From contig MCGO01000073.1 in assembly GCA_002104985.1 (NCBI GenBank), positions 145,729 to 209,728 of the forward strand: DNA of 64,000 bases. Direction: 5' to 3'. This document shows positions 2,988-38,766 of this stretch, in pieces. Under the pieces are notes generated by a model, which saw only the letters and a program-made list of their open reading frames with translations, made no database searches and had not been told where the DNA came from. This DNA comes from Rhizoclosmatium globosum (taxonomy: Eukaryota; Chytridiomycota; Chytridiomycetes; Chytridiales; Chytriomycetaceae). How positions within the stretch are numbered: the stretch's first letter is position 1; every line of letters begins with the position of its first letter. A program made the translations under genes and the position numbers.

Positions 2988-3169
2988 AAATAGAGAAATA
3001 AACCGTGTTAAGTAATTCACCATGAAAAGCAATAATATTTGCGCAGAAAACGCGTGAATTAATTGCAGCGAGTTTCCGAAAATGAGTGAGCAAGGTTAAG
3101 CATTCAACCACCACCCTCCGCCGCCAAACGGCTCCCTGCCGCGCCACCGCTAACTTGACACCGCCAAAA

Positions 3170-3242
3170 CGAGCGTACCAGGGGTCGAACCTGGAATCTC
3201 TTGATTCGTAGTCAAGCGCGGTAACCATTTTGCCATACGCCC
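3170..3242 (-). tRNA. tRNA-Arg(ACG), intact
   Basis: A complete cloverleaf reads on the minus strand. The acceptor stem is GGGCGTA paired with TACGCTC. The anticodon stem CTTGA/TCAAG encloses loop CTACGAA, giving anticodon ACG. The T arm is CCAGG/CCTGG around TTCGACC. No intron is present. This is the undamaged twin of the tRNA-Arg gene that is split at 9725-9747 and 17138-17190. Confidence 0.95.
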
Positions 3243-3414
3243 ATGTCAGTATTATTTGATTACTCATCTAAGATCTCGTTTATTGCTGAAATAACATCAA
3301 ATCGAAATCAATATATTTTCTGACAGCTAAAAAGCTTCATTCACATCTTGACCGTGGCCACTGAGTTAAAGTTATATCAGTTGCAAAGAAATCTTTTTAT
3401 TCAACTTGGAACCC

Positions 3415-9724: not shown

Positions 9725-9747
9725 CGAGCGTACCAGGGGTCGAACCT
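9725..9747 (-). pseudogene. tRNA-Arg(ACG) fragment, 3' part (acceptor and T arm)
   Basis: Identical to the 3' end of the intact tRNA-Arg at 3170-3192: acceptor strand, T loop and the start of the T stem. Identity stops exactly after CCT on the plus strand, where element sequence begins. The missing 5' part lies at 17138-17190 in the same orientation. The tRNA was therefore cut in its T stem by the insertion, and the element does not rebuild it. Confidence 0.9.
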
Positions 9748-10047
9748 CGACATCCATTCAGTTGTTGTAGTTATCCAGCAAACGAAATTTTTGTCCAGCT
9801 CGGCCCTTCCCGACGTCCAGCCAGCAACCGTTGCAACACCTTGCCACGTATCAGGCGCCACCGGGACCACTATATCTGGGGTGTATGTATTTCATTTAGC
9901 CTATATCCGCTTAGAATGGGCCTGATCCGTTGCTCCTCTCAAGGTCGCTAACCTGCTTATAATCAGAACTCAAAAGCACCAACTGGCTGGCCGAAACGCA
10001 CGATCCAGAGCTAATTTGGTCAATTTGCTCTTTTTCACACTCCCCCG

Positions 10048-13000
10048 ATGTCTACTATTCAGTGCGCTGTTTGCACTAAACCAATGGCAAAAGCCATCAC
10101 TGTTTGCGCTGCACATCGGCTTCCAATCCATTGGGCGTGCAGTAAGATAGATTCTACTGGTGCTCTTTATTGCTCTACGCCGTCGGCTCCAACATGTGCT
10201 AAATGTAACATTTATTTCGTCATTTAATAATCCAGTAGCTCATATCCGGACATCCACTTTTTCAGCTGGCAAACCCATTGCCCCTCCCCGCCGCTTTCGA
10301 GAGTCCACGTCGCCTCCCCGGAGACCCACTCCACAACTGCCACTATGCCAGGAGCCCCGTCCTTGTCTTCGACGCCGTCTTCATTGTCGCCTACAGCTCC
10401 TCGTAGCAGTGACGCACCAACAATGCTAACGTCCCATGGTGAATTTTCCTGGTTTCTTTGGTAACGTTGCTAATTGTTTCCTTCTATTATTTAGCGCGAA
10501 ACGCGGAAGAAGCGCGCTGCAGAACGTGCAAGTTCCCGGTTTTGTCAACAACCACAGCCTCGGACTGCGACGGCTGCCACAGACAAATACACTCAAAATG
10601 CCTGTTCCCAGATAACGAAAAGCGCTACTGTGGTCCCTGCCAGTTTGCAGAACCGTCGGAACCGACACTTGGTCCCTCTTCGGATGATACGCCCTCCACT
10701 CCATCAACGAAACCCCAAAACTCAGCTGGCTTGACGCTAAAACGCCCACGAGTTTCTGACGACGCCGGGCCAGCCCCAAAGAAAGTACTCCCGCCAAAAA
10801 CCCTCGCAGCAGCGGCAAAAGCCTCAAAGACGGCATCGAAAACGTCGAAGCCTACAACAAAGAACTCTACAACTGCCGGTATGTTTTATAGCTATCACCA
10901 CAATCATCGACTTATTTGTTTTTCGTGTTTAGTTTCCAACGAAAAGTCCAAGGCGGCCATTACACCAGAAAAAAAAGGAGAACAACCAACGCAGCTTCAA
11001 CTTCCAGTCGTTGAAGCCTCGTTCGCTACGCCATCTTCCTCTGCTGCCAGTGCTAACTCGTCTGACGAGGATCTTCTGCCCTCTACATCTCATTCTCTCC
11101 AAGCCGTTGGCGACGATGTTGATACTGAACTCTCCGAACGCAATGACGATGCTGGCAATGGCGATCTTGTTGAGGACGAGGAACAGGATGACGAAAGTTT
11201 TGATGCAGCTGTACGGGCAGCAGAAGAGATACCTGAGTTGGACCTTCCTGACCGAGAAGTCACTGAAGATGATCTTGCGGAATTCTATGCGGACTTGAGT
11301 GATCGCGGTCTGCATGTTCCGGAGGGAGTGAAGGACGGGTTTGATAAACTTGGGTGGATTCTTATCAGCTTGTGCATTTCATTCGTTCGAATCATGCAAC
11401 TTTTCCACGTCTACCATGAGGCTATGTTTGGAGAAGACGGTGTGATGCTCTGGTCCGAGGAGCGTGTTGCGTTGTGGATGATTTGCGTCAACAACTTGTA
11501 CACGCAACTTCAGCCAAAACGTGGTGCCCAAGGGAACAAAGCTGACCACAATTCGCTGCGTACGAAGCGAAGTGTGATTGTTGCCCATTTGAATGTAAGT
11601 TAATCTGTCCAACTGCTTAGTTCTAACTCATGCTGTATTAGCCATATTGGGATAGAGTTGGTGACGAGCGTTGGTACATTCCACAGTTCTCGCAATTTGT
11701 GGACATTTTGAACTATATGGCGAATAGGAAGGTATCCAGTGAGTCAGACAAAGTGCAGTCTGTGGTGAGTTGTTTTCGCTTCATCTTTTGGTTGCTAACT
11801 CACTCCAAGGCACAAAGCTCGAAAGTCCGTACCGTTTTGAGCAACTTGTTTGAGCTTAACAAGGTTTTGCTCCCGAAGGAGGATCAACGCAATCCAAGTC
11901 ATACAACTGAGCTTTCGACGTTTGTGACGAACAAAAAGAAAGAAATCCGCCGACAACGCCACTTGTACGTATTTGTACTTGATCGACAGTTGCTAATATG
12001 CTCTTGCTTAGGTCCAAGACAGACCACCACGCAACCTCTGTGCTTGGAAACTTTGACCGCCTTAACGCCACTAAACGAGAGGCTCGATACATTGATATGA
12101 TCCGAAAACCATCTCGAAGGACGAAGGTTAGTTAACTTTCATCAATAGTGCCTCACTGACCGATTCTCTTCAGGGAATCCAAGAATGGGATCTTGATATT
12201 CACGCAGCCACGTCACTTTCGCGAGGAGATAGTATTCGTCAATATGAACGTGGTTTTCAGAGCTTCCTTACATATGACACTCCAACGGGACCTGCGGTTG
12301 CCTTCATTCAAGAAATATACCATAAAACTGGTCACGATGGAGAAGAGGCTGAAGATGTAGGATATTCCTGTTCAGGTTGTTTTATCTGTTAACGCTCTTC
12401 TAGGGAAACATCCGAGTCACAGGGTACATCCAGCATGAAAATCCGGCTCTTTGTGCTGTTACTTCGAGTTTTATGCGTGAAGAAGATATTGTCATGCGAT
12501 ACAAGCATGCGGTAAAGGTTGCACGAAGCCAACAACTATCATTCCGTCTCCGATTCCAAATTTGAAAGAAGGTGTGTCATCCCACAGCTATTTTACATTT
12601 TAACGACAATCAGGCTGCAAATCTTTTGAGCACAAACTTGTATTCTCTGTCAATGGATTGGGCGATAAAGTGATGGCGGCGTCAACACACCACCACAAGT
12701 CGCAACGAGCCAAAGGAGATCATGGCGGTTCGAAAGAAACGCATTTTTACAGAGTAACGAAACCAGCTGCAATGATTAGTCGTGGTATGACACGTGAGAT
12801 GGTGAAGGTTGCGGGTGGCTGGCAACAAAAATCAAATTCATTTGACGGCGCCTATGTGCTTTATCCATCCTTGGCTCAGCTCTTATTCCTTACTGACAAG
12901 AAACCCGACGAAATCCGTATCATTGCAAGAAATTATGTTATAATCCCTGACGCTCTGCTGAAGGCCTTCTACATACACATTTGGGAACATCATACCTATA

Positions 13001-14374
13001 TCATAACCGAGAAAGATGGAAATTACGAAGACAGATCGACCGAAGTGTTTGTTGAAACGAAGCTACAGGAGGTGAAGCTTGGTATCCCGGTTTGTGTTTG
13101 GCTTGACCTATAACGTGTCCTTACACCTTTGTTAGGGCTTTGCGCAATTATATCACGAGAATAAAAATCTCATTCCAGCGGAACACTATTGGCGAATGGT
13201 TCATCCGATTTTTGTTGATTCAAAAATCAGCGCTCTTTGGGAAAAATACTGCGCCGACGTTGGGAAGAAAGTCAAGGAGTACAAGACAGACAAAGCGAAG
13301 TTCTTTATGAAGCTCGGAATTCAGGAGCCGGTGGTTGGAGATGCTTTGAAGGTATGTTAAGAAAATAATTGCAGATGCTCAACTTATCGAAACTTTAGGG
13401 CGACTTGATTCTCGCATCTCTTTCTGCCATGAATCAGAGTAATGTGGACAGAGAAACGTTGGCGCAGTTGCAAGTAAGCCATGACCGACTTTCTCGTGAA
13501 AACAAAATGCTTCGTGACCGAACCAAAATGGCTCGGCGAATAAAGTCAAATTGAAACGCAGGCCAAGATGATTGCGGATCTCCGAAAAATGTTGCATCGC
13601 CAAAATGCCACCTCTCCAACAAAACAATTCCGGCCATTTTGCCCCTCAAGTTTCGTCCCTCTTTCCCAGCTGGAGATCGGTGGACCCTCAAGTGCCGTGA
13701 CTGGAGGACCATCAAGTGCCGCGATTGACAGGAATACTGCTCTGATGACTCCAACAAAGTCCTCTACAATTGCCATTGCAGAATTGCCATTTCCCTGGAT
13801 GGTTTTTAGCAAGACTGGATTTGAAACACCTGTCCGAGGTCAACAGTTGGGGCGCTTGTATATTGCCTATGATGACAAGTTGTTCGATTTTGCCACGGCC
13901 AAAAAAGACTCTATTCCAAATGTCTACGTTCGACCCCTGTCTATGTATACGTACAAGGATGTGTTCGAAATGATGGTGCTTTTTGACAAGCTCAACGATC
14001 TTTATGGCCCTAAATGGAGGAGGAAGAACTGCCCAACGTTTAAAGGAGCAGCGCCTGATTCTTGGTGGGCGAGCCTGAAGGTCTCCTATAAAGTCACGAA
14101 GAAGTTATGTGAGAAAGACTCGTTGGAGAGTGTTAACCAACGTTTGATGGAAATTGACAACCCGTCAAAAATGAAGGATGTTGTTACTAACCTGAGGAAG
14201 GTGTCGAGAGCCGCTGCGGAAGGTCTTAACACACCTGAGACTCAAAAAGTTATGCAAGGTGACAAGGCTGACCGACGCACCGCCTCTCTTTTTCGAATGG
14301 ATGTTATCAAGAAGCTGCGTCAACTCAACAATTCCGATATTGCTGCTGTGTTATTGGCACTCGATGAAGATTAG
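10048..14374 (+). CDS. Crypton-like tyrosine recombinase with PHD-like zinc fingers
   Basis: Intron-rich gene predicted to cut and join DNA for the element. The N-terminus has two PHD-like Cys/His clusters: CAVC...CAAH...HWAC and CRTC...CDGCHRQIHSKC...CGPC. An acidic linker follows. The catalytic part shows Crypton features in order: LSRGDSIRQYE (first Arg box), HENPALCAV (the usual Crypton HKDP-x-LCP region), then KETHFYRV (HxxR), AGGWQQ (Trp in place of the second His) and GAYVLYPS (candidate nucleophile Tyr). The C-terminal LYGPKWRR region resembles the GCR1_C DNA-binding domain. Clear introns include 10439-10494, 10879-10932, 11595-11641, 11765-11809, 11965-12011, 12127-12173, 12357-12403, 12572-12613 and 13090-13135. 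The joins near 10204-10260, 12510-12550 and 13470-13560 need a one-base correction or another splice, so intactness is unproven. Confidence 0.8.
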
Positions 14375-14426
14375 CATTATAGTTTATGTTCTATTGTGTG
14401 TTTTCAATCATTAAATTAGTACTGTT

Positions 14427-14925
14427 TTTTGCGCGACCTTTAACCTAAAGAAACTCTGGCTCTCGCCAATGAGCGAACGCGAAGGAGGCGAGAGCCGTTA
14501 GGAGATTTTTTGAATATTCTACTGAGTTTGTAGCTGAAAACAGTGTTTTTTGGGGCTCTTTTTTCGCGCGGCCCTTAACCTAAGAAACCATCGGCTCTTG
14601 CCAATGAGCGAACGCGAAGGAGGCAAGAGCCGTAAGGAGATTTTTTGAAAAAAAGGTCCTGATTTGTAGTCTAGAACGACGTTTTGGGGTCTGTTTTTTG
14701 GGCGCGGCTTCAACCTAAATAGCCTTGGCTCTCGCCAATGAGCGAACGCGAAGGAGGCGAGAGCCGTTAGGAAATAATTTTTGGATTATTTGACTAAGTT
14801 TGTAGCTGGAAACAGTGTTTTTTGGGGCTCTGTTTTTCGCGCGGCCCTTAACCTAAGAAACCATCGGCTCTTGCCAATGAGCGAACGCGAAGGAGGCAAG
14901 AGCCGTTAGGAGATTTTTCGTATTT
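14427..14925. repeat. Four tandem ~135-bp repeats, each with a 39-bp hairpin
   Basis: Hairpins lie at 14458-14496, 14593-14631, 14727-14765 and 14866-14904. Copies 1 and 3 have arms GGCTCTCGCC/GGCGAGAGCC. Copies 2 and 4 have GGCTCTTGCC/GGCAAGAGCC, so the change is matched in both arms and the palindrome is kept. The 19-base loop AATGAGCGAACGCGAAGGA is identical in all four. Each unit is preceded by a (T)AACCTAA motif and followed by a T-rich tract. Units alternate A-B-A-B with a period of about 270 bp, which suggests duplication of a dimer. They lie in the noncoding gap between recombinase and resolvase. Confidence 0.95.
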
Positions 14926-15611
14926 TTATGCCTTGTTGTGCCTCAAAACGACGTTCTGGTGGTCGAATATTGCCTGTAGATGTTGCCTCGAAACGCCTGC
15001 TGTTTATAACTTCGGAACGACGCCATCGAAACACCCGAAACCACTCGCGATATCAATAAAAGACGTACAAATAGTTATGGTCGAAGTTTGAAAGTTGAAA
15101 CTTTTGTAGAACATTGGAAGTATATGTTTACTGCAACAGGAGCGGGAAACTGTATAGCATTGTGTTCGTGAACAAATCTCGATCAAAAACTCTCCCAATC
15201 GTAACATACATACTTAATAGTATGTACACGAGCGTGCAGGGCTGGGAATAGTCCCTCTGATGTTTTAGGGCAGCGCAGCTTGGAATACTTGACAATAACA
15301 GCCCAATTAGTCAAGGCACATAGATAAAACTGCAACATATGAGATAAACGAAGCGAAGTAAAGTGGTCACAGACCGTTTCGCCTTGGTTCGGCTGTGTTT
15401 GGAGTTTAGGGTTGTTTCTAGGGTTAGGGTTATTTCACGCAAATCACTTTACATTCATATCCAACACCAATTCCGCATGATCCGGCAAGAGTACTTCATA
15501 TTCATGTTTATTATAACGCCTCACAACAATGAAACGACCCAGCCCCGAACGACGCAACAGAAAGAGAGAGAGTAAGAGAGAAAAAAATTGAACCGCAAAA
15601 TCAAAAACCGC
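14926..15611. other. Noncoding stretch inside the element
   Basis: No convincing reading frame. It lies between the hairpin array and the convergent resolvase gene. The only structure I see is the telomere-like tract at 15405-15432. Confidence 0.5.
15405..15432 (+). repeat. Short interstitial telomere-like tract
   Basis: One TTAGGG unit, a short interruption, then TAGGGTTAGGGTTA. This matches the common fungal telomere repeat. Three units or fewer could arise by chance or through repair, but the position inside a mobile element is notable. Confidence 0.6.
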
Positions 15612-16871
15612 TCAGTACTCGATAGCTTGACCGGCTTGGACCCAGTCCATACAAGCGATTGCGATAAGGGATGCGTCGCAGATATGGTGGTTCTTGGAGT
15701 TCTTGCCATCAAAACGCTGAATTGTTCCAGAAGCCCCAAGGATTTCCATTAAGGTCACCGCATTCTCCTTCTTGGCATTGTATTGCCGACGCTTCGCCTT
15801 TTGATCTTCACGGCTTGCCTTGACATTTAACAAATACTGGCCGTATCTGGTTTTCCAGTACTTTGACACATGAAGCGGGTTGGCAGTCTCCACCGAGCCT
15901 TTCAAGCGAGTATCAAGAACCGTAACGACAACGTTCTGCACTTCCATGACTTGGCGCAACTTCTTCGACGGAGGGGCAAACTTCTTGGCCACAAAGTTGT
16001 ACGCCGGTTTGGGGAACTGCTTCTCAACAAGAAAACGGATCGGCAACGACTTAAGTTGCACGGGAATACGTTCGACAACCATGGCAATGAAATGGTTGAT
16101 TTGGGTACTCATTACGACGGAATCGTTGTCGGCTGTTGTTCCAGAGATGACTTTGTTGCAGCCAGCGTCGCAGAATACACGCTCTCCGTTTGGCAGAATG
16201 GCAAAGATTGCCCAGCCAAAGTTGATGAGACCTGGGTCCATTCCAACAAACACACATCCTTTGTTCTCCACGAGACGGCAGAAGGCCAAGAACGACGTCA
16301 AGGCCTCCACTTTTTCACGAATAGTTGCACGGGGAGACGCAGCGCCGTACTGGCCAACTGCAGCGAGGGCATCGGCGAGAACAGCCTTGAGTTCTTTGTG
16401 AGCGGAGCCTTCAGCTGGCGCGGCATCGGCCAAACAGTCAGATCTCTGCGTAACGTTTAGAAGCATTAAACGGAAGATGTCTTTCCAATTTTAGAACATG
16501 GCTCACCTGTCATTGTCATTGTCCCAAACACCTTCGCCGTCAACCTCGTCCTCTTCCTCCTCGTCTTCTCCGTCGCTGTCTGCCTCCAATCAACCGACTC
16601 CATTTCAGCGTCGTCCCTGACCGTAACTGACGGTCCACCAGCAACTACTTCATCATCGTCATCATCCAGAGTTAAATCAATGACCACCGGCCCCTCCGCC
16701 ACCAACGAGTGATCAGTGCGGCTTCGTTTTGTTACTGAGACAATGTAGCAGTCCGGGTCGTAGTGGTGAGCTGCAGCGGGACCAGCAAGGACTTCGTCGT
16801 CGTTGAACTGCTCCCGAAAGGTTCCCGTTTTCGTCGTCGTCACCCGTGAGATCGATAATGGTTCGTTTCAT
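15612..16871 (-). CDS. RuvC/CCE1-like Holliday-junction resolvase with SUMO-binding-like motifs
   Basis: The domain encoded from 16466 down to 15612 has an RNase H-like resolvase layout. FVGMDPGLINFGWAIF supplies the first Asp, in the DPGxxNxG motif of RuvC, CCE1 and poxvirus-type resolvases. IRFLVEKQFPKP supplies the Glu. HHICDASLIAIACMDW near the C-terminus supplies the last acidic residues. A Lys/Arg-rich stretch (KASREDQKAKRRQYNAKK) precedes the last motif, as in the family. An ATG at 16466 gives a 284-residue protein. Upstream sequence to the ATG at 16871 encodes an acidic N-terminus with two SUMO-interaction-like motifs (RTIIDLTGDDDE and VVIDLTLDDDDDE), joined by an intron near 16470-16500. 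The frames there do not join cleanly, so the N-terminus is uncertain. Predicted role: resolving four-way junctions, probably those made by the element's recombinase (inference). Confidence 0.78.
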
Positions 16872-17137
16872 AGCTGTGTTTGATGGTAGCAGTTGTGGCA
16901 GTTGCAGCAGTTAGTGGTGTGTTTGCGGTTTTTCAGAGAGAGTCTGTTCCCAATTTGCACCGTTCGAATCCTGCCGATGGTGGTGGGCTCCCTCGCTACA
17001 CCCAGACGTCGTTCATGTCTGTCTGAGATGCTTCTGGGTGCGTTGTTTTCTTCTGGGTGTGTTTCCTTCTGCACTGTCTTCTGTCTGTTTTTCTGGCTCG
17101 AAAATTTTCTTCCAGACTCAACAACACCACTTGAGAC

Positions 17138-17190
17138 CCTGGAATCTCTTGATTCGTAGTCAAGCGCGGTAACCATTTTGCCATACGCCC
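17138..17190 (-). pseudogene. tRNA-Arg(ACG) fragment, 5' part (acceptor to variable region)
   Basis: Identical to 3190-3242 of the intact gene: 5' acceptor strand, D arm, anticodon arm with ACG, and the first strand of the T stem. Beyond CCAGG the sequence is that of the element, so the T loop and 3' acceptor are absent. It complements the fragment at 9725-9747 with only three bases in common. Confidence 0.9.
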
Positions 17191-18680: not shown

Positions 18681-18702
18681 CACAGCAAATTGACCCTCGA
18701 GA
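18681..18702 (+). repeat. CACTA-like element, left terminal inverted repeat
   Basis: Starts CACAGCAAATTGACCCTCGA and matches the right end (24494-24515, inverted) at 21 of 22 positions. Just inside are several AAGAATTATTG-type copies, possible transposase-binding sites. Confidence 0.9.
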
Positions 18703-18957
18703 ATTCTTAAGAATTATTGAAGAATTATTGAAGAATTGTGAGAGCATTATCTAAGATTTCGTCCAAATTGTTAGAAAAAGCCTACGAATTCCCGGAGAAT
18801 TATGAAGAACATCTTGCTAAATAGCGAATTTTTGAGAATTTTTAAATATTCTTGACAAAATTGGCAAAAGCTCTGAAAATACTGATTTATTTTGCTGAAG
18901 CAATACGCACATTCCATGCACTCAATCTCACAACAATAACATACTCTTTCCTTCTTA

Positions 18958-21298
18958 TCACTTCTTAATACGCTTTTTTCCCTTGCCAATCTCGGGAGGA
19001 ACAACAAGAGGAGGCAGTCCGAGTCCATCGTCGTCAAAAGGCCTTGTTGGCTTGAATGGCCACATTGACCAGAATCCGGCAACATCTCCTCTATAAGAAC
19101 ACAGATTCAATCAGTTGGCAAATGTTGGACAGCGAAAACAAACCTTGAATACAACAACTTTAGAAATCCATCACCGATTAATCGTAAGGCCTTCAGCTCC
19201 ATCAACTTCACGGCAGCAGCTGCCTCCTCCTCGTCCGTCCGTTCTTCCTCCTCCTCCTCCACCTCGTCCGAATCCAAGATAACAATAAAAGGATGAATAA
19301 GGTTGTCAAAACGTGAATCAAGCTGAATTGCAGCTAAGACGTGGTATAATGACTCCTGCAGCGTCTTCTTTTCCTTTTCATTGTCACTTTCGTGAGAAAA
19401 CAGACTCAAATCATCCAGCAAATTCTCAATCCAAGACGAAACAGATAACACAGAGAGACTCGGAACCAAGGACTTGACGAGACACTGAACCATTGGAGCC
19501 AATAAGTCAGTTGAAGACTCCTTTGTTTTCACAAGCTTCAGGATGTCAATTGTCGAGGATCCAGTCTTGGCCTTGTGCTTGAAGGACTTGCTTTCAAATA
19601 AACTGGTAATGTTGTGTGCATCCAAATCCGAGTAGTGAACTGATGCCAAGAGTGCAACAATTGAGGGGAAGATACCAGCCAGGAACAATTCCAATGATGC
19701 ATTGTGGCCTAGGCGATTCAGCCGCATAACAAACTGCATCATACACGGTTTGTATGCATGAATATGGATGGCATCAGAATACGAGAGCTGGATTGAGTTT
19801 GTATCAATGAATGATATAAGGACGCAAGAAAGCAAGAAAGCAAACACACACCTTGTCTTGAAGCATTGATTGCTCAACAGTTGCTAAAGCAGCCATAAGC
19901 TCTTGGCGATCCTTCAATTTTCCTTGCTCAAGAGACGTAACATAGTTGCTCAAGATGGATTCAGTAACAAGAGCTTGGGAAGGTGGGTTGTAAGAAAGAG
20001 GAGTTTTCTTCCACAAGAAACTCTTTGACTTGGGCTCGGATGAGAGGAGAGCTTTAGCTTTGGCGGCTGGCTTGACTTTGGCAGCAGGTTTGACTTTGGT
20101 GGGCTTGGTGGGCGTGGTCACAGACTGAGTGACACGTTTTGATACCAACACAACGTCCTCCTCGTCTTCCTCTTCCTCATCTGATCCCATATGCTTGCTA
20201 GTGCTTCCTACTCCTGCTCCAGCCGCCTCCTCCTCCTCCTCCTCTTCTTCCTCCTCTTCCTCCTCCTCATCTGACCCCATAGTACCACCATACTTTCGCT
20301 TGCTGCTGCTTCCTACTCTGGACACGCCTGCTCCTGCCTCCAAGTCTCCCAAATAGTTATCCATGCTTGACTTTGCAAAAGTCACTTCCTTGTGTATTGC
20401 TGGATTTCTCTTGAGTGGTTCTGACACCTTCTTGGGTTCTACAAAACAAATCAGAACGAAATTCTGAACAAGTATTAAAGAACCAACTCACCTTTACGAA
20501 GCACACCTGTAGCCCTCAGCGCAAGTCCCATATTTGTCACAGAAGCAGCCCACATCAACGAGTCCAGAGGGGTATAATGTGCATTGATTTTATCAAGCTT
20601 GCAGGTAGACACCAGAAGACTGTACATATACTCGATCATTTCATCAGTGGCTTTGGTGGTTCGCGAGAGGATAGCGTCTGCTGCGAGCTGGTGGTTTGTA
20701 GGAATGGATGCACTCTTCCGATAGAGTTTTTGAAACTCCTCGAACGGAACAGATCCAAACACAATCTTGAATTCCGCCACAATTGCCCCGTCACTGAAAA
20801 TCGGGCAGCTTGAGGCAACTTTCACGCTTCCCTTATGACAGCGATTGGATTCTTGAAGAAATGAGGTTATGAGGGCAGTAACAGACTGTGTGAGTTTAGC
20901 CAAGCATTCTGTATGAAGGAACACCAACCCACCTTCATTACTGCCTTCCGCTTGTCAGAAACATCCAGTGCTATTGGAACAGAGGGCCTGGCGGGTATTG
21001 GGTCTTTCTTGAGGGCAGACGAACTTCTGAGGGATGAGCTTCTGAGAACAAACAAGTTAGTAAGAGTACTGGAGACCCTTGATACTCACCCCATGGCTTC
21101 TCTAATTGTTTCGTAACGTGTTTTGTGACCCTCGTGGTCAGTCTGAATGTAGTTGCGCAAGTTTTGGTTTTCAGTCTCCAGCTGTTTGATTGTGCGTTGC
21201 TGCTCGTGAATCTTCCTCTGCTGCTCGTTATCTATCTCTGCGTCTGAATCAATGGCTGTTGCGGTGGTTGGATTTGGGGGAGAGGATGAGAGAGTCAT
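18958..21298 (-). CDS. Unrecognised partner gene of the CACTA-like element
   Basis: Six exons with phase-consistent 46-65-nt introns: 21298-21090, 21041-20933, 20885-20492, 20438-19852, 19787-19144 and 19089-18958. The protein starts MTLSSSPPNP with a coiled coil (EQQRKIHEQQRTIKQLETEN). A helical domain follows (KLTQSVTALITSFLQESN...), then a basic/acidic low-complexity stretch with an Asp-Glu run and Lys-Pro-Ala repeats. A second helical domain comes next. The C-terminus is distinctive (RGDVAGFWSMWPFKPTRPFD) and ends KGKKRIKK. I recognise no domain. It lies wholly between the terminal repeats, so it is probably an element gene; a TnpA-like DNA-binding or accessory role is possible but unproven. 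Confidence 0.75.
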
Positions 21299-21328
21299 GC
21301 GTGTGAGTGTGGTTTCCAGACAACAAAA

Positions 21329-24184
21329 ATGCTCACACTCTGCCCTACTGATCACTGCACAGCCTCCTTCAGCAAGCTTTCAAACCTTGTTGTCCATTTG
21401 AGAACAGTACAACATGACAATTCCGTTATATCTGATTGGGTTTGCCCCCGTTGTCTCTTGTCATTTCCGAACAATGAAGCAAGCATGACAATCGCGTCAC
21501 ATCTCGAAACCCATTCCCACAGTAGAAAGCGTAAAGAAGCAGAGAGTCTATGTAACAGTGATCAAGATGGGGAGGATGATCCAGCAGTGTCTCCCGGTCC
21601 TTCAAACTCCTCACCAATTGGATCAGAGTACCGAGACGTGCAGAATCAAGTAGAATATGACCATGACGATGCGTGGCCAGAGTTTTCTCAAGCTACTGAT
21701 GTCACTGATGATGAGAGCCTGCGAGGCCCTGCAAGCGAATCAGAGGAGGAAGAAGAGCAAGAGCCTCGCTACTTCGACAATGAGTCCGATATCCCACTTG
21801 TCAGTGCGACTGAGTCAAGTATTGGTAATTGTGACATCTGTTTGGCATCACTAATCACGCAATTACAGCATATTCTCGACTAGTTTCGCTTCTAGTGCGG
21901 TTGAAGACTGACAGTCTCTTGTGCAACAAATTTACACTGTTCCTTCAATGTATGCAGCAAAAATGGACGCATCAAGGCTACTCCAACCTTGTCAATACGC
22001 GTTGGTCAATTATCCAACTTGGTAACAGATGCTATTCATTGAGTGAGCTTGCAGGTTTCCCCCAAACACTTCAAACTCTAACCAACCAGATTTTCAAACT
22101 GATTGGTTCATTCTTGCCAATGGAGTCATTTGAAACTGAAGTCCACCACAAACCTGAAACAGTTCCATACATGTCGCTGAAAACTGCTGTCTTGATTTGG
22201 CTCTCGTCACCTGGAATCGCAGCGTCCATTCAAAAATCAAATCTCCTGAATGTTCTCCCAAACATCTCATGTGTGAATACTGCGCAAATACTGAAAGATC
22301 GAATGAAAGAGTATGAGACTCGACCTGAGGATTACGGAATCGAATCTGCTGAAACTAGTGTTGAGTTTCTTGGAGTTTTGTTACGAACAATGGACCAGTG
22401 GCTTCCTGCTTATGCAGCAAACAATATCAAGCCTCCACATCTCAAGCGCAAAGTACGTTTCTTGCACCTGTCAATGTATCAGGATGACTTTGGATGGATG
22501 GGAACTGTCAACACCAAACGCGGCCAAACTGTCTTTTGCCTCACTGCAATGGAAATCGAGAGGGGAATTCGTGCAAAGACGAATGGGCTTGGAGTCCTCG
22601 CAATTATGCTGACAAAGTCTGCCATAGTCAAAGGAAAGGGAGGAATGAACCTTCTTCTGGGTTGTTATGCAGATGAGTTAGAAGAATTTATCAAAGGGAT
22701 TGAGTTCACCATTGGAAACGAGACGTTTCTCGTATTTGCAGTCATTTACCTTTACACTGGTGACATTCCAGCCAGAAATCGCATCTTGGGCAGAACGATT
22801 GCTGTCAACCAAAGATTTGCGTGCCACACCTGCGAGACACCAACCAAAGAATTCTGCAAATGTGCGTTAGATGCAACAAAATTGAAATCAAATCGTTCTC
22901 CCGCTCAATACAAGGCCCTTCTTGACGCAAATGGAAGGATTGGAGAAATTAATGGACCAAACAAGACTGTTGCAGAGGCATCTGGAGTCGTGGAGATTCC
23001 TATTACTGCAACCTTTCCTGGCCAAAACGTACCAGTTTCTACAGTCGTTGATTTGATGCATTCTGAACCACTTGGTACTCTGCACAAGGAGTTTGCATTG
23101 CTCTCTGCAAGCCTAACACCCAACCACCTTCCTAAAATGAGCAATGAGTTTGATGTGTACGGAAGGAGGAATCATTTGGAGTCACGCTACGACTTCCACG
23201 ACTTGAATTCGTTGAAGGGGCTCCATGGCCACGGCTTGCTTCTCTTCTTCCTTGTATCCCCTTACCTTCTTGTCAAACTGAAGCTTATCAATCAATCCAA
23301 TTCAATCTTGTGTTCACTCTTCCGGAATTGGTGTTGCAGGATCCGTTTATTGAGTTTGATGTGCAGTCATTCCTTGACTCCTGCCCAATTCGCTGAAATG
23401 GAGTCACTTATCACTGGAATCATGAAGTTCTATGGTGAAAATCATCCCCGACTTGTTACTATCAATATGCATTTCCTTCAGCATGTGTGCGACTACATCA
23501 AAAACTATGGATTGCTGCGTGATCACTGGAGCTTCGTTTATGAGCATCACAATGGCATCATCAAGAGCTGCTACTCGAATACAAACAACAGGAAAGTGTC
23601 ATTTGGCGTGTACAGAAGGCTACTGTCTGTCTACACTCTCGAACTTTTGGACCAGATTGCTGGAAAGCCCAACCAGTGCCCAAAACAGTGAGTATCCGCG
23701 TTTACAAGAGTATTTATTGATACATTGATCCAATAGAAACGATATTCCTCCTGCCGACTCATACCTACATCTCCCTCCATCTGATACATTGATCCAGGCT
23801 GAAAGCAACATCCCTTTTCAAGATTGCCAACTCTACACCAATGCAAACGGTGATCCAAAGCTGAATTGGCAAACATTGCGGGACGGGGATTGGATACTCC
23901 TTCGTGTTGGAGAGGATGATCCAATTATTGGAATGTTTGTTGCGGCGGCAACAACTCAAAGTGGAAGAGAGCCTGATTTACTGTTGTTTCGGAAGCCGAG
24001 AATTCAACGGAGAAGGGAGAAGAGGGTGGATGGATCGTTGCAGTGGCTGGTCTACTCAGAATCAGCTGAAGTTGGCGTGGTATATGTGTCCGACGCCGCA
24101 GAGTCGTTTATTCGAAGGCTGAAGACGTTGAAGATTGATGAGACATCCGTTTTGATTGTGGATGGAGTGGATGAACTGTTTTGA
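21329..24184 (+). CDS. CACTA/EnSpm-like transposase with N-terminal C2H2 finger
   Basis: Predicted DDE-type transposase of the tnp2 kind. The N-terminus has two C2H2-like motifs (LCPTDHCTASF...HLRTVQH and VCPRCLLSF...HLETH) and then an acidic linker. The catalytic core shows SMYQDDFGWMGTVN, LYTGDIPARNRILG (the Asp-x-Pro-Ala motif of the family) and FACHTCETPT. It continues with STVVDLMHSEPLGTLHKEF and ends with NMHFLQHVCDYIKNYGLLRDH leading to WSFVYEHHNGIIK, a plausible final Glu. Introns at about 21826-21869 and 23689-23737 join in phase. The long middle exon is uninterrupted, so the gene may be functional. Confidence 0.85.
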
Positions 24185-24493
24185 TGGAGTCAACAGGGAG
24201 CCATCAATAAACGACACTGTCGGCACAACACTCATCTTTTGGCTTTATAGGTCGTATCCAGTCAGGCAGAGAAGCAAGAGGGTGGGAGAGTCACCCATCG
24301 GTCGTTCTTCGGTTTTCTGGACAGCTGTATAACCCAAATATGCCGAGAAGGAACCAAAAACACACGTTTCAACGGCCCTGTACCTTTTAGAGTCATTTAC
24401 TACTCCTTGAAACCGACCTCACGGCTTTGCGAAGCGGTGCCGCGGAGTGGGCCCTGGGGGATTCTTGAGAATTCTCCAAGAAATTCCGAAAAC

Positions 24494-24515
24494 TCTCAAG
24501 GGTCAATTTGCTGTG
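24494..24515 (-). repeat. CACTA-like element, right terminal inverted repeat
   Basis: On the minus strand it starts CACAGCAAATTGACCCTTGA, the inverted partner of 18681-18702. Between the transposase stop and this repeat (24185-24493) there is no gene, only subterminal sequence with GAGAATTCTC-like motifs. Confidence 0.9.
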
Positions 24516-25252
24516 AAGGATAATTAACTAAATATTGCGCGCGCAGCGCCAAATCAAACTTTGAGCAGAAAATCTGCGCGCAGAAAAAGGAGATGGAAAC
24601 CTGCGTCAACCAATCAGATGCCAGGATCCTAGCTCCTCCACTAACTTGATTCCGAATATCCCGAAAGACAATGAATAAATCAAGCGTGTTACCAACATTC
24701 TACAATTCGAAACTATTCTTTTTTAAATGCGAATCTTGACCAATTAATGGAACTGGAACTTTAGCTGATTGATATATTTCGACTTCTCAAAAAGGTGGAC
24801 TAGATGGCCTCGTTTGACTTCCATGAAGTAAGACATAAATAAACATATATAAACAAAATGCCTTTACTTTGATCCTGCTTTTAGCTGCAGCCCTGAGGTG
24901 TATGGCAAGTATGCGTGAATACAAAAACCTCGGAAGACTCGGATCAAAAAAGGACGCAAAAATCCGATTTTGAACAAAACAGACAATAATGGGAGAAAAG
25001 TAATCTGCTGCAAATCGCTCAAGACGCATGAGGATTTGTAAATGGTTAAAGATTGGTGGCTTTAATCATCAATCTAGCCAATCATCAATCTAGCCGCTGT
25101 GATACTCTACTCAGAAGTTAACACAGATAAAAAAGAAGAAGAAGCGGTGAGTATTATTCTTGTGGATAGTGTGAAAACTGTTGCTGATAAAACCCCCACA
25201 CCTGAAACACACCCCCAAACGCGGCCAATTTAAAAACGGCAACATAAAAGCG
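24516..25252. other. Intergenic region, no gene seen
   Basis: AT-rich sequence between the transposon end and tRNA-Glu. Open frames are short and unlike proteins. A stretch rich in GCGC around 24536-24585 is the only compositional feature. Confidence 0.5.
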
Positions 25253-25324
25253 CTCCCAGACGGGGAATTGAACCCCGGTCGCCGCCGTGAGAGGGCGGAA
25301 TCTTGGCCACTAGACGATCTAGGA
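25253..25324 (-). tRNA. tRNA-Glu(CTC)
   Basis: Complete cloverleaf on the minus strand. The acceptor is TCCTAGA with TCTGGGA. The anticodon stem CCGCC/GGCGG holds loop CTCTCAC, giving anticodon CTC. The T arm is CCGGGG/CCCCG around TTCAATT. No intron. Confidence 0.95.
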
Positions 25325-25645: not shown

Positions 25646-26874
25646 TTAGATTTGCTTTTGCAATAATTGTTGGAATTCAGGGCGATCTGACCATTGTGGG
25701 CAGCTCAACAGAAATTCCTTATCTTCAATAGAAAGGATAATGCGTGGATCTTCCAACAAACATGACAGATTTTCCACAGTTTTTGTGTATTGTAAAGCCA
25801 TTACTCCACACTCAGTCGGATCAACAGTTTTCAATAACAGTTTAACAATGCTTGAATCTGCGTGTCTTGCCGCTTTGATTAGAACGGCACCAGTCAACTC
25901 GACTCTTGGGTCTTGTACTAGTGTTTCAGCCAGCTCAAACTGTCCATTGATGTAGGCGTGTCCCAGGTAATCTCCAAATGTTGGATCTATGCGACCGTCT
26001 TTGAGCATAAGTCTGACAATATTTATGTGCGAATACCGGCAAGCTGCTGCAAACGCGTATTCATCGTTGGCACAAGGATCCACACCAGGAATGTTCAGTA
26101 GTATGTCGACAACGTCAAAATGGCCTCTTCTCGCAGCAAGTTGAAGTGCAAGGCTGCTTTGAGCAGCAGCATCAACATCAGGAATCGTCAACAATATCTT
26201 GACGACATTGACGCGGCCGTACCTCGCTGCATAGATAAATGCAGCATTATTCTCATGCGCAGCATTTGTTCGGGGATCCAACAAGAGCCGCTCAATTATA
26301 GCCAAGTGACCAAATCGAGCAGCATTACGAAAGGCCACATTCAAAGGCATTGCGGACTCCGAATCGCAAATACTCAGCAACAAATCAACAACATTTGTCC
26401 ATCCAGCGCGAGAAGCCCAAACGAGTAATCGATGGTTCTGAACAGCTGGATCGAAGTCATCAGCGAGAAGGATCTGTATCACCTTGATCGCTCTCTGTGG
26501 AGAAAGATACCATCGCAAAGACCACATTAAATTACGGTGACTGTTGTCCCAAAGTTGGTTTACACCGTCCCACTCATCGGCAGCAAGCATCGCTCCATAT
26601 ATGGCTGCCTGGTGGGACAAAGGGAGTAGCGGCCAATGACGGCTCCCATACAGTTGTGCATCTTTGAGGAACTGCCAAATTGGATACCTCTTCAAATACT
26701 TTTTCTTTGAAGAGGTATCCATATCTGATACGAAAGATGCAGTTTAGCAAAAGATAGGCTGTCGAGGACTTGTTTCAGCCGTTTGGATGCCAGTTGAATC
26801 TGAACTAGTTTCCAATTGATGGGGAGGTGGAGTAAGATGGCTTGAATGAGTTCGATTGGGAGTGATTCGATCAT
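25646..26874 (-). CDS. F-box-like/ankyrin-repeat protein 1
   Basis: The N-terminal F-box-like motif (SLPIELIQAILLHLPINWKL) resembles that of the four paralogues in this window. About eight ankyrin repeats follow in a local variant with repeated LLLDPRTNAAHEN- and IPDVDAAAQS-type turns. By analogy with F-box proteins, the N-terminus may bind SKP1 and the repeats a substrate; this is inferred. The two parts are in different frames, changing near 26700 in an A-run. The paralogues read straight through, so one miscounted base is likely. It is followed in tandem by a second copy. Confidence 0.72.
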
Positions 26875-26894
26875 TTTTAGGATTTATTAAATTT

Positions 26895-28331
26895 CTACCC
26901 TCTTTTATTGAACCATTTAGAAAACAGTCCACCATTTTTCTGGACAGGAAGAAAAGATGATGCTGAGACTGGCGGAGGCTCTGGAATATTCCCATATGTC
27001 AACCTAATTTGAATCTGATGGTACCGCTCGCGAACCACCTTATCAGCTTCACTCCAAACTGCAGCATCATAAACAATATCAATCAACCGTCTTTTCTCTT
27101 CTTTGCTCATTACAGTACGCGGATCGTCCGCCAACAGGCTGAAAATATCAAATTGAGATGTTTCTGCAGCCAATCGAAGCGCGAAATTGTCTGTCCCGTA
27201 ATACTTGTAATCCCATACGTCCGAATCGATTTGTCGCGGATTATTTACGTCTGCGAACCACTTGACACGGCCATCCTCGATCAACACTTTCACAACGTCG
27301 ATATGTTTGTGTTCACAGGCCAAAACAACTAAATTCTCATCGCTCTTGCATGGATTGACACGAGGATCTTGTAGCAGTCGTTCCACGATATGAGCGTGAC
27401 CTTTAACGATTGCCGTGCATAATGCTGCATTAGGACGCCAATCAAATACGTCAGTCGGATTCACACGGCGATCAGCAAGTAGTTGATTCACAATATCCAA
27501 GTTCCCCGCACCACAAGCGGTTACAAAAGCTTCGTTATTATTTGCTGCCGGATTCACACGCGTATCCTTCAACAAAAACCTGACAAGTTCTGGATTCCCA
27601 CTTTTGACCGCCGTACGAATGGCGATATTATTAGATACATGAGGATCCATATCTAGTGTGAAAAGAAACTGGACAACCTCCAATTGACCACGAAACGCCG
27701 CCATTTGAAGCGCCATCAGCTGTTTACTGTATGTGTTCATACGGGGATGTTCGAGTAGTCTACGCATAACGTTGACATGGCCTTGCATTGCGGCGTTGAG
27801 AAAATACGCTTCATCAATATAAGAATTCGGGTTTGGCATGAGTAAATCGACAACGTCCAACCAGCCTGCACGTGCAGCCCAAAGCATAAGTCGATTATCC
27901 TGCATCGCCGGGTCAAAGCCGGAATCAAGGAGCCAGTGAACCATTTTCAAAGCTTTGGTTGGGGAAAGTTGCCAACGGAGAGACCACATCAGATCATCCG
28001 CTTCTGTTTCAGCTTTTAAAGCATTGAAGCAACTATCAGTAGATAGAATGTCTCTGTAAATGGCCGTTTGGTAGACAAAAGGGAGGCTCAGCCACACTTC
28101 ATTCTTGATGCCAACCTTCTCCAAATAGTCCCAGACCGACGGCGATCTGGATAGTTTTCTTTGGTAAGTGAAGTGCCTCGTTGCGAAGGAAGGGTCTTGA
28201 AAGATGATAGATGCCAGCTGCCTTGATGCAAGTCCGACAATGACTAGGCCGAAATCGATTGGCAAGTTAATCAGAATATCTTCAATGATTTCGGGTGGTT
28301 GTGACTCAAGTGAGGCACTGGATGGCCTCAT
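26895..28331 (-). CDS. F-box-like/ankyrin-repeat protein 2
   Basis: Single exon of 478 codons. The F-box-like start (SQPPEIIEDILINLPIDFGL) is followed by a linker shared with its paralogues (WLSLPFVYQTAIYRDIL). Nine or so ankyrin repeats span roughly residues 130-400, with the recurring turn LLLDPRVNP. The C-terminus is short and basic, ending SKWFNKRG. It is only 21 bp from paralogue 1 on the same strand, which suggests tandem duplication. No frame break is present. Confidence 0.78.
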   Translation of the reverse strand: MRPSSASLESQPPEIIEDILINLPIDFGLVIVGLASRQLASIIFQDPSFATRHFTYQRKLSRSPSVWDYLEKVGIKNEVWLSLPFVYQTAIYRDILSTDSCFNALKAETEADDLMWSLRWQLSPTKALKMVHWLLDSGFDPAMQDNRLMLWAARAGWLDVVDLLMPNPNSYIDEAYFLNAAMQGHVNVMRRLLEHPRMNTYSKQLMALQMAAFRGQLEVVQFLFTLDMDPHVSNNIAIRTAVKSGNPELVRFLLKDTRVNPAANNNEAFVTACGAGNLDIVNQLLADRRVNPTDVFDWRPNAALCTAIVKGHAHIVERLLQDPRVNPCKSDENLVVLACEHKHIDVVKVLIEDGRVKWFADVNNPRQIDSDVWDYKYYGTDNFALRLAAETSQFDIFSLLADDPRTVMSKEEKRRLIDIVYDAAVWSEADKVVRERYHQIQIRLTYGNIPEPPPVSASSFLPVQKNGGLFSKWFNKRG

Positions 28332-28406
28332 CGATCACTTTGAGTGGAATTCAAGGATAGGCATTATATTTCATATCGATAAACTAAAATAAACAAACGA
28401 ATAAAA

Positions 28407-28711
28407 TCAGAATCCAATTCCATAAAAGTCAACATGATTAACAGCCTTCACATGCTGATATCCTGGACTACTTGGACTTGTTGGACTGTGCACTGCCCAA
28501 ACACCACTGACAACATCGTCATACTCATCGCCATCTCGCCCCTTCATGAAAAGACATAATGTTAGATAATAAAGGAGGTGTTAACGTTCAGGGTACTCAC
28601 CCAGTTATGAGCACCAGCGCCGCCCTTCTTGATTCCCTGATCTCCTCCTCGTCCTTGCTTACCACCCGCACTTGGGATACGGATTGACTGCTTCTTGTTG
28701 GAACGGGTCAT
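28407..28711 (-). CDS. Small Gly-rich protein with a KGGAGAHNWG motif
   Basis: Two exons, 28711-28601 and 28541-28407, with a 59-nt intron whose phase-0 join restores KGGAGAHNWGRDGDEYDD. The ~81-residue protein has a basic N-terminus (MTRSNKKQSIRIPSAGGK) and a polar C-terminus. The Gly-Lys-rich block ending in NWG followed by acidic residues resembles short motifs in HABP4/SERBP1-type ribosome-associated proteins. That similarity is too short to rely on. Confidence 0.6.
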
Positions 28712-28882
28712 TTTTTGATTCTTTTTTTAGGACGTAACTGATTTCTTGGGGGCGCCACAAAGATCAAGAAATTGAGGCACTAATGCCTTCTTTTTATAAA
28801 AATGGTATGGCACCCAACAAACAAGTATTTATTGACAAGTAATCAGATATGGATAAGAGAGAGTATGAAGAAAAGGAGGATA

Positions 28883-29766
28883 TCAAGCATTAGCTGCATT
28901 CCACGCGTTGAGGACTGCTTGCATTTGTTGTTGAAGGGCGACTTGAGTGGCAACGTCTTGAGTCTGGCTCAATTGGATTTGAAGCGCGTTCAACAAGGCT
29001 TGATAATTCGCGAACAAAGATGGCGTAGAGACTCCGTTAATGGCATTGATTTGAGTAATCAGAGCGTCGCGAGTGGCTGGATCGGTAGTATTCACAAGGA
29101 TATTTTGAAGCTGTTGGACTTGAGATGTAGATGGAGACGTGATTCCATTGATTGCGTTGATTTGAGAAATCAAAGCTTCGCGTGTAGATGGGTCTGACGT
29201 TGATACAAGGATATTCTGGAGTTGTTGAACTTGATAAGTGACGGGAGACATGGCGCCGTTAATAGCGTTGATTTGAGCAATCAGAGCTTGTCGAGTTGCT
29301 TGATCCGCGGTTGAGGCAAGAATATTTTGAAGTTGTTGAACTTGAGAATTTGAAGTGGAAGCAGAAGTGAAGGCGTCGATTTGAGCAATCAAGGCGTCGC
29401 GAGTGGCAGGGTCCGTGGTGGTGACGAGGATATTCTGAAGCTGTTGGACCTGAGAGGTGTAGGAGACATGATGCCGTTGATGGCATTGATTTGGGAAATC
29501 AAAGCTTCACGTGTCGATGGGTCCGTGGTTGATACGAGAATATTTTGAAGCTGTTGCACCTGGGACGAGTATGGAGACTTCATTCCGTTGATAGCATCGA
29601 TTTGGGCAATCAGGGCATTGCGGGTGGCTGGATCATATGTGCTCACAAGAATTCCTTCAAGTTGCTGAATTTGAGCATTGGTTGATGTGTCTCTCGTGAA
29701 GAGGCTGATGGGAGACTGGAGAGAGAGTTGGGCGAACAAGAAGAGAGAGAAGAGGACTGATTGCAT
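28883..29766 (-). CDS. Secreted protein made of 37-residue repeats
   Basis: A signal peptide (MQSVLFSLFLFAQLSLQSP) is followed by six repeats with consensus QVQQLQNILVSTTDPATR, then ALIAQINAINGxxSP. A related helical C-terminus ends NAANA. The repeats are amphipathic, probably two helices each, and may form an extended surface or wall protein. Repeats 2 and 5 are almost identical, which suggests recent internal duplication. The frame shifts by one base near 29458, but the repeat consensus continues on both sides, so this is either error or a recent break. I recognise no family. Confidence 0.68.
29015..29690 (-). repeat. Six tandem 111-bp coding repeats
   Basis: DNA-level tandem repeat underlying the secreted repeat protein, 111 bp per unit with near-identical QVQQLQNIL-coding blocks. 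Such arrays tend to change copy number. Confidence 0.85.
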
Positions 29767-29957
29767 TTTCTGTTTTTGAATGATATAGAATACTTTGACA
29801 TAAAGTTGCTCTTATGCATTTCTGTGAGGTGTGTGAAGTGCGTAAAAGATAGTGAAAGAGTGTGGGAAGCTGCCAACAACAAAAAAACTGACAAACCCTT
29901 TTCAAGTCAGACCCCTTCCCTCACCCAACACACCACACCACCACCACCACCAACCAA

Positions 29958-32900
29958 ATGGACTCGTGCGCCACTCTTCACGGTGCCCCCGATCCTTCGC
30001 CTCTCTTTATGACGCCGCGCCGCCCTTTTCAACAAATTTGAGTTCGGGCGACTTCCGTTTTTCGTCGCTTCCAACCAAAAGAAACGCAGCCGCACCAGAA
30101 ACCTCGATTCTCTTTCAGCTCGGTGAAACTTTGAAACGCGCAGCTTCTCCTCTTTCGCGAAACTCGGAAAATGGAAAGAATCAGAGATCGCGTTCGCTTT
30201 CGCCGGTGCGGCAGCAGATTGATGATTCATACTTGGACTTTGAACGCGTATTAAAACCACTGATGGATAATACTCGCAGAAATGTGGGTGTGGCAGGATC
30301 AGCTCCAGTACTTGATCAGTCGCACTATAGACAGTCTCAGGGACACAGATGCCTTTCAACCAGTGATATTCCTGTTGTTCCTGTATCTCTTCAATCTTCA
30401 GACCCGCAAATGAGGTCGGACCCATATTTGAGACCACCTCCACAAAGAAGAAATCCATTTATGGTTGAAGAGCACAGGAACTCCATTATTAATTTACCTT
30501 CTTCGAATCAGTGGAGTTTGCTTAACTCATTAAGAATCCACGCTGGGACGCCTGAAAGATCCGAAGACGGCGTTGAGAAGCTGCTGCAGTTAAGTGCCCC
30601 CTAATATCAGATTTCCATAGCTAAATATTGCTTTCAGATATTACGCTCAGCTTTTGAACTTGAGCCAAAAGTTTGATTTTGAATCTGGAAGGGTGAGTCT
30701 CCTCACCTATTTCAATCATCTAATCAGCCCGATATAGCACTCAATCAATTTCAATTGGTATGAAGCCTACTCTCCTGACCGCCAAGTTACACATTCATGC
30801 ATCCACTTCGAGATGGCGTGTGTTCTTTTCAACGTGGCGGCTGTGTACAGTCAGATGCATGTGCCCAACGTCTCTCCACCACAGACGGTAAAAAGTTGGC
30901 TGCAGCCTACTTCAAAAAATCCGCTGGCGTGCTCATGCATGTTCGAGATACACATTGTCAACGCGCACAAATCCGCCTTGAGAAGACGTCGGACTTGACA
31001 GATCAGTTTCTGACGGCAAGTGCTCAAGTTATGCTCGCTCAAGCTATGGAATGCTATTTTGAAAAAGCCAATGATGGTAGAAAGGTGGCTTGATAACTAT
31101 TGTGCTAAAATCCCACCCGATTCAAAGATAAGGTCAGCAGTCCTACCATGTCCATGCTTGCGACTCAAACAGCGGATTACTATGAGCTTGCTCTTCGTCA
31201 CTCTAAAGAAGGGATTCACATTTTGAGTCGACAGCGCTTCCCTCGGGTATGTCGTACCAGTCTGTATTAATGAACTTGAGCTTAAACTTTTAAATACAGA
31301 CATGGATTCAACAGCTTACTGCGAAATCTTTATTTATGCTGCTATCGCACATTTCCACGCCCCATTGTCCCTTCCTGCTGAACAAGCCCTTGGAGAACGT
31401 ATAGCTCGATTGACAATCGCCAAGAACCTTGCTACGCGAGCGTTCAAGAGTAGTTCTAGTATCGGTGGAACAGTTCACGATATTGTGAAGGTAAAATCGG
31501 CTCCTTCTAAATACTGGGTTTAACCAATTTCGATGACAGGGATACTTGGATGTAATCACTTCTTCTCATTACTTGCAGACGCGGCAAACTTTGAAAACAT
31601 AATCATGCAGCAGTAGATGCATCATTAGTCCAGCTCTTAAGAGACCAAATGAGGCACTGGTTGTTCCATTCCTGCTGCAGAATCAATCGGCGATTTGCAG
31701 CGTTTCTCGGATGTGTTTGCCGGATTCAAACCGGTTGAAGAAGATTTAATCTTGAGGTACTAAGTACTTTGCTGTGGAGGTAGTTGAGCGCGCTTCAAGA
31801 AACTTGGAGGCACATCGCAAAGATATTGAAGCGTACGTTTCCTGAAAATTCTCAGCATTGTGCTAACTTTATATATATGCATCTTCAGAGAAATTAAACG
31901 TCATAATGTCATGGAAACTTCCACGCTAAAAGAGATCCTCTCAGTCAACAAGGAACGGCCAACGCCATTTGGGAACACATTCAAGTGATTCAGATGGACG
32001 AACGAAAGGAACCATACTCTGACTTGATGAAAAGACTTGACCTGATGCATATTGCCATTAATACGTATATTCACGAGGTCTACTCTTTTTAATCTCACAA
32101 TCGCTTCACTAAATTGCCGACAGACAACTAAAACCTTGACGCCACTCCACCACATCTCTGCCGACCCACAAACCAGAACCCTCACGCCACACTTTGTAAA
32201 GCTATCCATCAAACTGCACAACTCCTTCCATCTCGATCAAAGTCTCTTCGAGACCTTCGTACAATGTACTTAAGCAAGCCAGTAACGGATTTCCATCCCT
32301 TACAGTGGACACACGAAAACTTGTTGGACTTGATACCCGCCTTAGATCCTCAAGAGACCTCGCAATAGAAGACGTTGTCTCCGAAAAACGCCGGAACATG
32401 CTGTGAATGACCTGAAGCGATCTCTCGAAACCTTCACACTCTTCAAAAAGAATGCACAGGAAAGCTGGAAGAAGTCCGCACTTTGTTGAAAGTATGGATA
32501 CACTTCGTGATGCAAAGGGAGTGCATGCACATAAATTGAGACTCAAGTTAATTGAAGAAGCTGTGGCGGGTATAAAATCGTCTAAAGAATCAGCAATGCG
32601 TCGCATATTTGAAGTTAGTGGCGTTGTTAAAGCCATCTCTCCAATGCGTAAGGTCGAGGAGAGTTCGAGAGACGCGATTGTTGGTTTTGAAGAAAGTGTC
32701 AAGGTTTACAAAAAGTTAAGAAGTGGATTGGTGCTGGAGATTAGCGTAAGTTCAACGTTTTATTCGAATGGAACCTGACACTATGACTTGGAAAATATAG
32801 GAAAGCGGTAAACTGAAGGACGAGGCAGAACAAATTTATCTGAAAGCTAAGGATATCAAGAAGAGCTCTGGAGACGCATCTGCAAAAGCTGAGCAGTCAA

Positions 32901-38739: not shown

Positions 38740-38766
38740 ATAAAGAAGTAGAAATACTTGATTGTA

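Follow-up and report, generated by a model that had tools for sequence, protein, structure and literature searches.

Cryptons, among them the CryptonF group of fungi and oomycetes, are tyrosine-recombinase (YR) DNA transposons (Kojima and Jurka 2011, PMC3212892), and the main text of that article has 0 occurrences of 'tRNA'; elements of the CryptonV group in microsatellites are mentioned in another article (PMC8869645). In bacteria and archaea tRNA genes are standard targets of YR enzymes, according to an archaeal review (PMC8371274). Eukaryotic tRNA genes have their own visitors: Dada transposons, with a DDE transposase, sit within them (PMC3706591), and retrotransposons lie near them (PMC5006619). 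Searches of open-licence literature, to which subscription papers and Repbase notes do not belong, brought up no eukaryotic YR transposon described as sitting in tRNA genes, nor one with a RuvC resolvase. Here we describe an inserted element of the chytrid Rhizoclosmatium globosum, found in a stretch of 64,000 nucleotides (the window; contig MCGO01000073.1, C392:145729-209728) where it splits a tRNA-Arg(ACG) gene. We report its exact position, a second copy inserted at the identical base, the empty counterpart of one insertion site, and related kinds of element in other tRNA genes. The genome searched amounts to 57 Mb in 420 contigs, and counts from these searches are lower bounds, as only the best candidates were scored. 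Its EF1A has what we take to be the opisthokont-type insertion, and the best PDB matches of this protein are two EF1A chains, one of them from yeast, which rank above mammalian-type chains, in line with a fungal host.

A tRNA-Arg gene split at one base

Both parts of the interrupted gene lie on the minus strand of the window. The 3' part (9725..9747) comprises the T loop and the acceptor side and ends at the core CCT, and the 5' part (17138..17190) begins from the core CCT and carries the acceptor 5' side, the D arm, the anticodon arm and the first T-stem strand; an earlier note on this DNA had proposed an overlap of CCT only, and these positions confirm it. The element between them, at 9748..17140, is 7,393 bp long including one CCT. 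Joined at the core, the window flanks contain exactly the 73-mer of the intact tRNA-Arg(ACG) at 3170..3242 (minus strand), which served as the target reference, and ARAGORN calls the joined sequence tRNA-Arg(acg), so the split of this gene in its T arm, claimed from the letters alone, holds to the base. Within the insertion itself no tRNA is called, the calls in the window being at 3169-3243 and 25252-25324 only, in agreement with the view that the element does not restore the tRNA 3' end. Read in the tRNA sense, the crossover falls at what we take to be the boundary between the T stem and T54 of the T loop, presumably within the B box of RNA polymerase III.

The earlier note had proposed a search for further copies and for insertion-free genes with the same flanks, and the genome contains both. 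Copy 2 (C392:120253-127729), separated by about 28 kb from the copy in the window, has the same length of 7,393 bp and the same ends, and is 98% identical; it splits a different tRNA-Arg(ACG) at the identical base, with the identical CCT junction, and the flanks of the two copies differ. At this insertion, too, no tRNA is called. Contig C371 is a clean empty site for copy 2. The left flank of this copy corresponds to C371:146414-147710 (92%) and the right one to C371:147708-147904 (89%), and there the two matches, which overlap by 3 bp, run contiguously through an intact tRNA. Full-length matches in the genome include at least 28 intact tRNA-Arg(ACG) genes and at least 2 split ones.

Compared with C371, the locus in the window is more than a simple insertion. 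Its left flank (9.2 kb) corresponds to C371:165943-175134 at 96%, and the right flank resumes at C371:177700, in a region of C371 with two tRNA-Arg genes and 2.3 kb between them, where an open reading frame (ORF) reads by eye as tubulin-tyrosine-ligase-like (TTLL-like). Of these tRNA-Arg genes, one is represented in the window by its left flank and the other by its right flank, with the intervening piece absent, a loss that would fit recombination between the two genes themselves, or between copies of the element residing in them.

Related elements in other tRNA genes

Searching the genome with the DNA and the proteins of the element yielded relatives which we group, next to F1 (the window element and copy 2), as the kinds F2 to F4 and a probable F5; their YRs are 20-30% identical between kinds. 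F2 is represented by a 6,963-bp element on C268, with the YR and RuvC-like genes on one strand, which splits tRNA-Pro(UGG) and in whose insertion no tRNA is called, and by a 4,308-bp element on C390, 97-98% identical to it, which has lost the YR core and splits tRNA-Arg(UCU). F3 consists of an 8,601-bp element at C46:285.6-294.2 kb in tRNA-Ile(AAU) and an 8,447-bp element on C93 in tRNA-Asn(GUU), identical to the former at 99.6% over 7.8 kb; this kind encodes a YR, a RecQ helicase (Helicase_C, E 1.7e-18) and a RuvC-like protein with SUMO-interaction-like motifs. All four F2 and F3 elements split their tRNA at the same T-arm place as F1. The shared core is CCT (3 bp) in F1, GGG (3 bp) in F2 and GGTTC (5 bp) in F3. 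The resolvase gene occurs in F1, F2 and F3, and RecQ in F3 only.

The other kinds take other loops. F4, about 7,302 bp on C113, interrupts tRNA-Leu(AAG) close to the anticodon loop, and one further copy of F4, on C415, is truncated and starts in another tRNA-Leu(AAG). A probable fifth kind, F5, is suggested by a YR match on C42: about 3.3 kb upstream of it, a tRNA-Glu(UUC), its anticodon read by eye, is present as a 3' part cut in the D loop; a zinc-finger-like coding sequence lies between, and the link between the tRNA part and the YR is drawn from this one end. Other YR loci are at C1:29495 and on C365, C408 and C395. Several of the 40 scored matches of tRNA-Leu(AAG) are 3' parts that begin from the anticodon or D loop next to unrelated upstream DNA (C359, C168, C1, C28, C101 and C396), and these may be further insertions or relics.

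Decayed relatives of F1 are present on C46, C380 and C8, where they have lost about 70 bp at each end as well as the middle. Their flanks are 95-97% alike, which marks them as copies of one locus spread by segmental duplication. The C46 relic (L011) is bordered by a 135-bp direct repeat, 87% identical, of which C8 has 41 bp only and C380 none that we found. On C46 and C380 (L011 and L012) a stop-free frame of 328-332 aa corresponds to the C-terminal domain of the recombinase, with the catalytic core deleted; its Ka/Ks of 0.19-0.31, against copy 2 and each other, is seen in a frame that possibly encodes a retained DNA-binding protein.

Candidate split tRNAs on C366, C367, C334, C201 and C24 (L015, L016, L023, L024 and L025) were rejected: they belong to a family of repeats, one end of which is a tRNA-Arg-like sequence of full length. 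This family is about 3.5 kb long, and an ORF in it, which reads VSVDPGLISVFG, resembles by eye RuvC-type nucleases such as Fanzor and has no Pfam match. A separate observation is a stretch of 32-35 bp common to F2, F3 and F4, 94-100% identical in the pairs compared, which contains the inverted repeat GACGAATG/CATTCGTC (L049 8193-8226; L043 2697-2730; L021 4534-4567; L050 7436-7467; L022 4525-4558) and was not found in the window.

Gene content and neighbourhood

The larger F1 gene (10048..14374, plus strand) is YR-like and has 12 exons; the 11 short introns between them, 42-61 nt in copy 2, were positioned by hand. The frame of the window copy is broken at several places, and the spliced frame of copy 2 is open (C392:120584-124906, 1,259 aa). 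By eye, the protein comprises a zinc-finger-like N terminus, a YR core, a coiled coil and a C-terminal domain. In the catalytic exon (12614..13089, plus strand), aligned with P1 Cre, the HxxR codons occupy 12742-12753, followed by GGW and by the Tyr codon at 12853-12855, and a motif comparison places HxxR, GW and Y in the YRs of F1 to F4. A profile of these proteins matches Cre above 40 shuffles, so that the motif and a weak profile match together suggest the YR identity. When 6 ORFs of the window and the protein spliced from copy 2 were compared with Pfam, there was no reverse transcriptase or DDE transposase match and nothing above cut-off, GCR1_C included. That domain (PF12550) appears in the C113 element of F4 at E = 0.031, a weak match under the cut-off, and in no other element kind; a scan of the genome with the PF12550 profile gave no match, control profiles being equally empty.

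The second gene, at 15612..16871 on the minus strand, is RuvC/Ydc2-like and has two exons, with the intron placed by eye. Its N-terminal exon is frameshifted in the window copy, and the C-terminal exon (~15612-16440) is open in the window and shifted in copy 2. The N-terminal exon encodes IDLT and an acidic run, which we take to be SUMO-interaction-like motifs. The predicted model has an RNase-H-like resolvase fold with catalytic acidic residues, and these residues are invariant across the three element kinds that carry the gene; by this modelled fold, we assign the product to the RuvC/Ydc2-type Holliday-junction resolvases. Its ORF retrieved nothing at E <= 0.001 from a set of 5.8 billion proteins, neither its sequence nor its profile found relatives in viral contigs, and the element proteins had no meaningful match by sequence in the PDB.

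Between the two genes lies a tandem array (14422..14918, plus strand) with a period of 135 bp and a perfect 10-bp hairpin in each unit, the units showing a compensatory change. The same repeat is found at L010 6490-6895, at L021 4870-5004 and at L022 4864, and is common to F1 and F4 elements, whose recombinases are hardly alike; it would be either a cis signal common to both kinds or a module passed between them. The element also contains a short telomere-like GGGTTAGGGTT stretch at 15411-15432.

Outside the element, about 6.3 kb of the window (18681-24984) are absent from the homologous region of C371 and probably represent another mobile insertion, with a 598-aa ORF at 21895-23691 and an end formed by a repeat of about 456 bp that recurs on several other contigs at 89-100%. 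Positions 25646-43206 hold several genes that look by eye F-box/ankyrin-repeat-like, apparently a local gene expansion; together with the TTLL-like gene, this expansion may hint at a chytrid host.

Interpretation and mechanism

In our analysis the element is a DNA transposon moved by a YR and using tRNA genes as its attachment site, a reading to which we give a probability of about 0.8. The whole set is best read as Crypton-like YR transposons, possibly Cryptons proper, which have become specialists of tRNA genes much as prokaryotic integrases have, and which leave the tRNA unrestored. With Cryptons the elements share a YR as the sole recognisable transposase, no detected reverse transcriptase and a fungal host. 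The direct repeat at their ends is short as in Cryptons, but at 3 bp (F1 and F2) or 5 bp (F3) it lies partly outside the 4-6 bp of that superfamily, and a possible tie to CryptonF is the weak GCR1_C match of C113. They differ in their place in tRNA genes at fixed loops, in a length of 7-8.6 kb when full, and in a RuvC-type resolvase, joined by RecQ in one kind; GCR1_C is not recognised in the window element. Of the Crypton likeness put forward in the earlier note, the catalytic motif stands, and the C-terminal GCR1_C domain of CryptonF is matched weakly by a single relative. To prokaryotic tRNA-integrating elements and phages these elements are similar by the YR, the tRNA gene as attB and the fixed crossover at tRNA loops, but here the tRNA is unrestored, the core has 3-5 bp, the host is a eukaryote and the YR gene contains introns. 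The second gene product resembles Ydc2/Cce1 and RuvC in its predicted fold and conserved acidic residues, and differs from them in being transposon-borne and in its acidic N-terminal region, whose motifs are presumably of the SUMO-interaction type.

A number of observations weigh against this reading. As read, neither F1 copy has both genes open, the YR being frameshifted in the window and the resolvase in copy 2, and the spliced frame of copy 2 relies on introns picked by hand, in the case of the first intron from many options. The hhalign probability of the YR against Cre is just 5.8%, and no match was obtained with lambda Int by itself (score 3.0), in a comparison where the true pair of Cre and lambda Int scored only 1.2. 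One Arg is conserved in F1 to F3, but the alignment does not pair it with what we take to be the first catalytic Arg of Cre. By sequence, no YR relatives were found in Pfam, the PDB or the 5.8 billion proteins (nothing at E <= 0.001 for a 910-aa part of the YR), nor by the YR profile in viral contigs, and the AlphaFold2 model of the F3 recombinase, with a predicted local distance difference test (pLDDT) score of 36, gave no structural confirmation. On C113, the 5' tRNA part has 7 nt foreign to the tRNA where the anticodon-stem strand is expected, so that the joined sequence is named by ARAGORN just tRNA-???; a resolvase was not detected in this element. Finally, the relics on C46, C380 and C8 are not in a tRNA, intact tRNA-Arg genes being about 0.4-0.8 kb off. 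Copies at unrelated sites were named in the earlier note as the outcome that would speak against it; what exists is this one decayed locus in triplicate, and, as its ends are missing, the relics cannot show their target and neither favour nor rule out tRNA targeting.

Among other explanations, an assembly artefact, or a chance joining of tRNA fragments to unrelated sequence, can be conceived when a 98% identical copy lies about 28 kb away on the same contig and might be collapsed or mis-joined. It is nevertheless extremely improbable: the flanks of the two copies differ, the tRNA halves are exactly complementary, copy 2 has its homologous empty site with the 3-bp overlap, and four more elements of two other kinds on other contigs are bordered by both halves of other tRNA genes. 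Hardly more credible is a Dada-like DDE transposon. Dada elements, too, are eukaryotic DNA transposons within multicopy tRNA genes, with families in fish and in Perkinsus that are directed to genes for tRNA or snRNA (PMC3706591), but according to the same source they encode a DDE transposase, duplicate 6-7 bp of target and sit partly at other positions, such as the A box in Perkinsus. The core here is 3 bp (F1, F2) or 5 bp (F3), the 3-bp overlap recurs at the empty site of copy 2, and the long protein has a YR motif and no Pfam transposase match.

A remnant of an integrated virus, a polinton-like virus or virophage carrying a YR, is unlikely, if somewhat less so. Just two genes are recognised in F1, and in the 6 ORFs and the spliced product submitted to Pfam nothing pointed to a capsid or to packaging, although very divergent capsids could escape it; in a cryptophyte study, tRNA genes were not found closer than 1 kb to the insertions of polinton-like viruses. 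More weight belongs to the possibility, which we still consider the minor one, that the RuvC-like gene is cargo or a captured host gene with no part in movement. The gene was not detected in F4, and its orientation varies, from the strand opposite to the YR in F1 to the same strand in F2; against this, it is kept in three kinds whose recombinases are 20-30% identical, its catalytic residues are invariant, and it always lies between the tRNA halves.

Under the reading of a YR transposon attached to tRNA genes, we propose that the recombinase would excise the element as a circle via the short shared core CCT, recognise the T arm and B box of another tRNA gene and insert there, leaving the tRNA split and dead. 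The host would tolerate this because the target is multicopy, with at least 28 intact tRNA-Arg(ACG) genes remaining. More speculatively, with no more than 3-5 bp common to attP and attB, the exchange of the second strand may stall, and the RuvC-like resolvase of the element may then finish the Holliday junction, an idea suggested by the very short core and by the joint retention of YR and RuvC in three divergent kinds. Alternatively, the resolvase may resolve replicated circles. Taking these steps further, we can tentatively imagine, as the less probable case, a class of integrative element in eukaryotes that has not been described before: its Cre-like YR would target the T, anticodon or D loop, a SUMO-recruited resolvase, helped by RecQ in one kind, would cut the stalled junction arising from 3-5 bp of homology, and the tandem hairpins would act as cis signals.

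At least four, and probably five, kinds of tRNA-inserting elements reside in this one genome; they use the T loop and the anticodon loop and, in the probable fifth kind, the D loop. Having several of them together makes testable the idea that tRNA geometry attracts YR enzymes in all domains of life. A transposon-borne resolvase beside a YR would bear on how strand exchange may be finished with almost no shared homology, and a recombinase whose natural site is present in many copies on the chromosomes of a eukaryote would be of practical interest for tool building.

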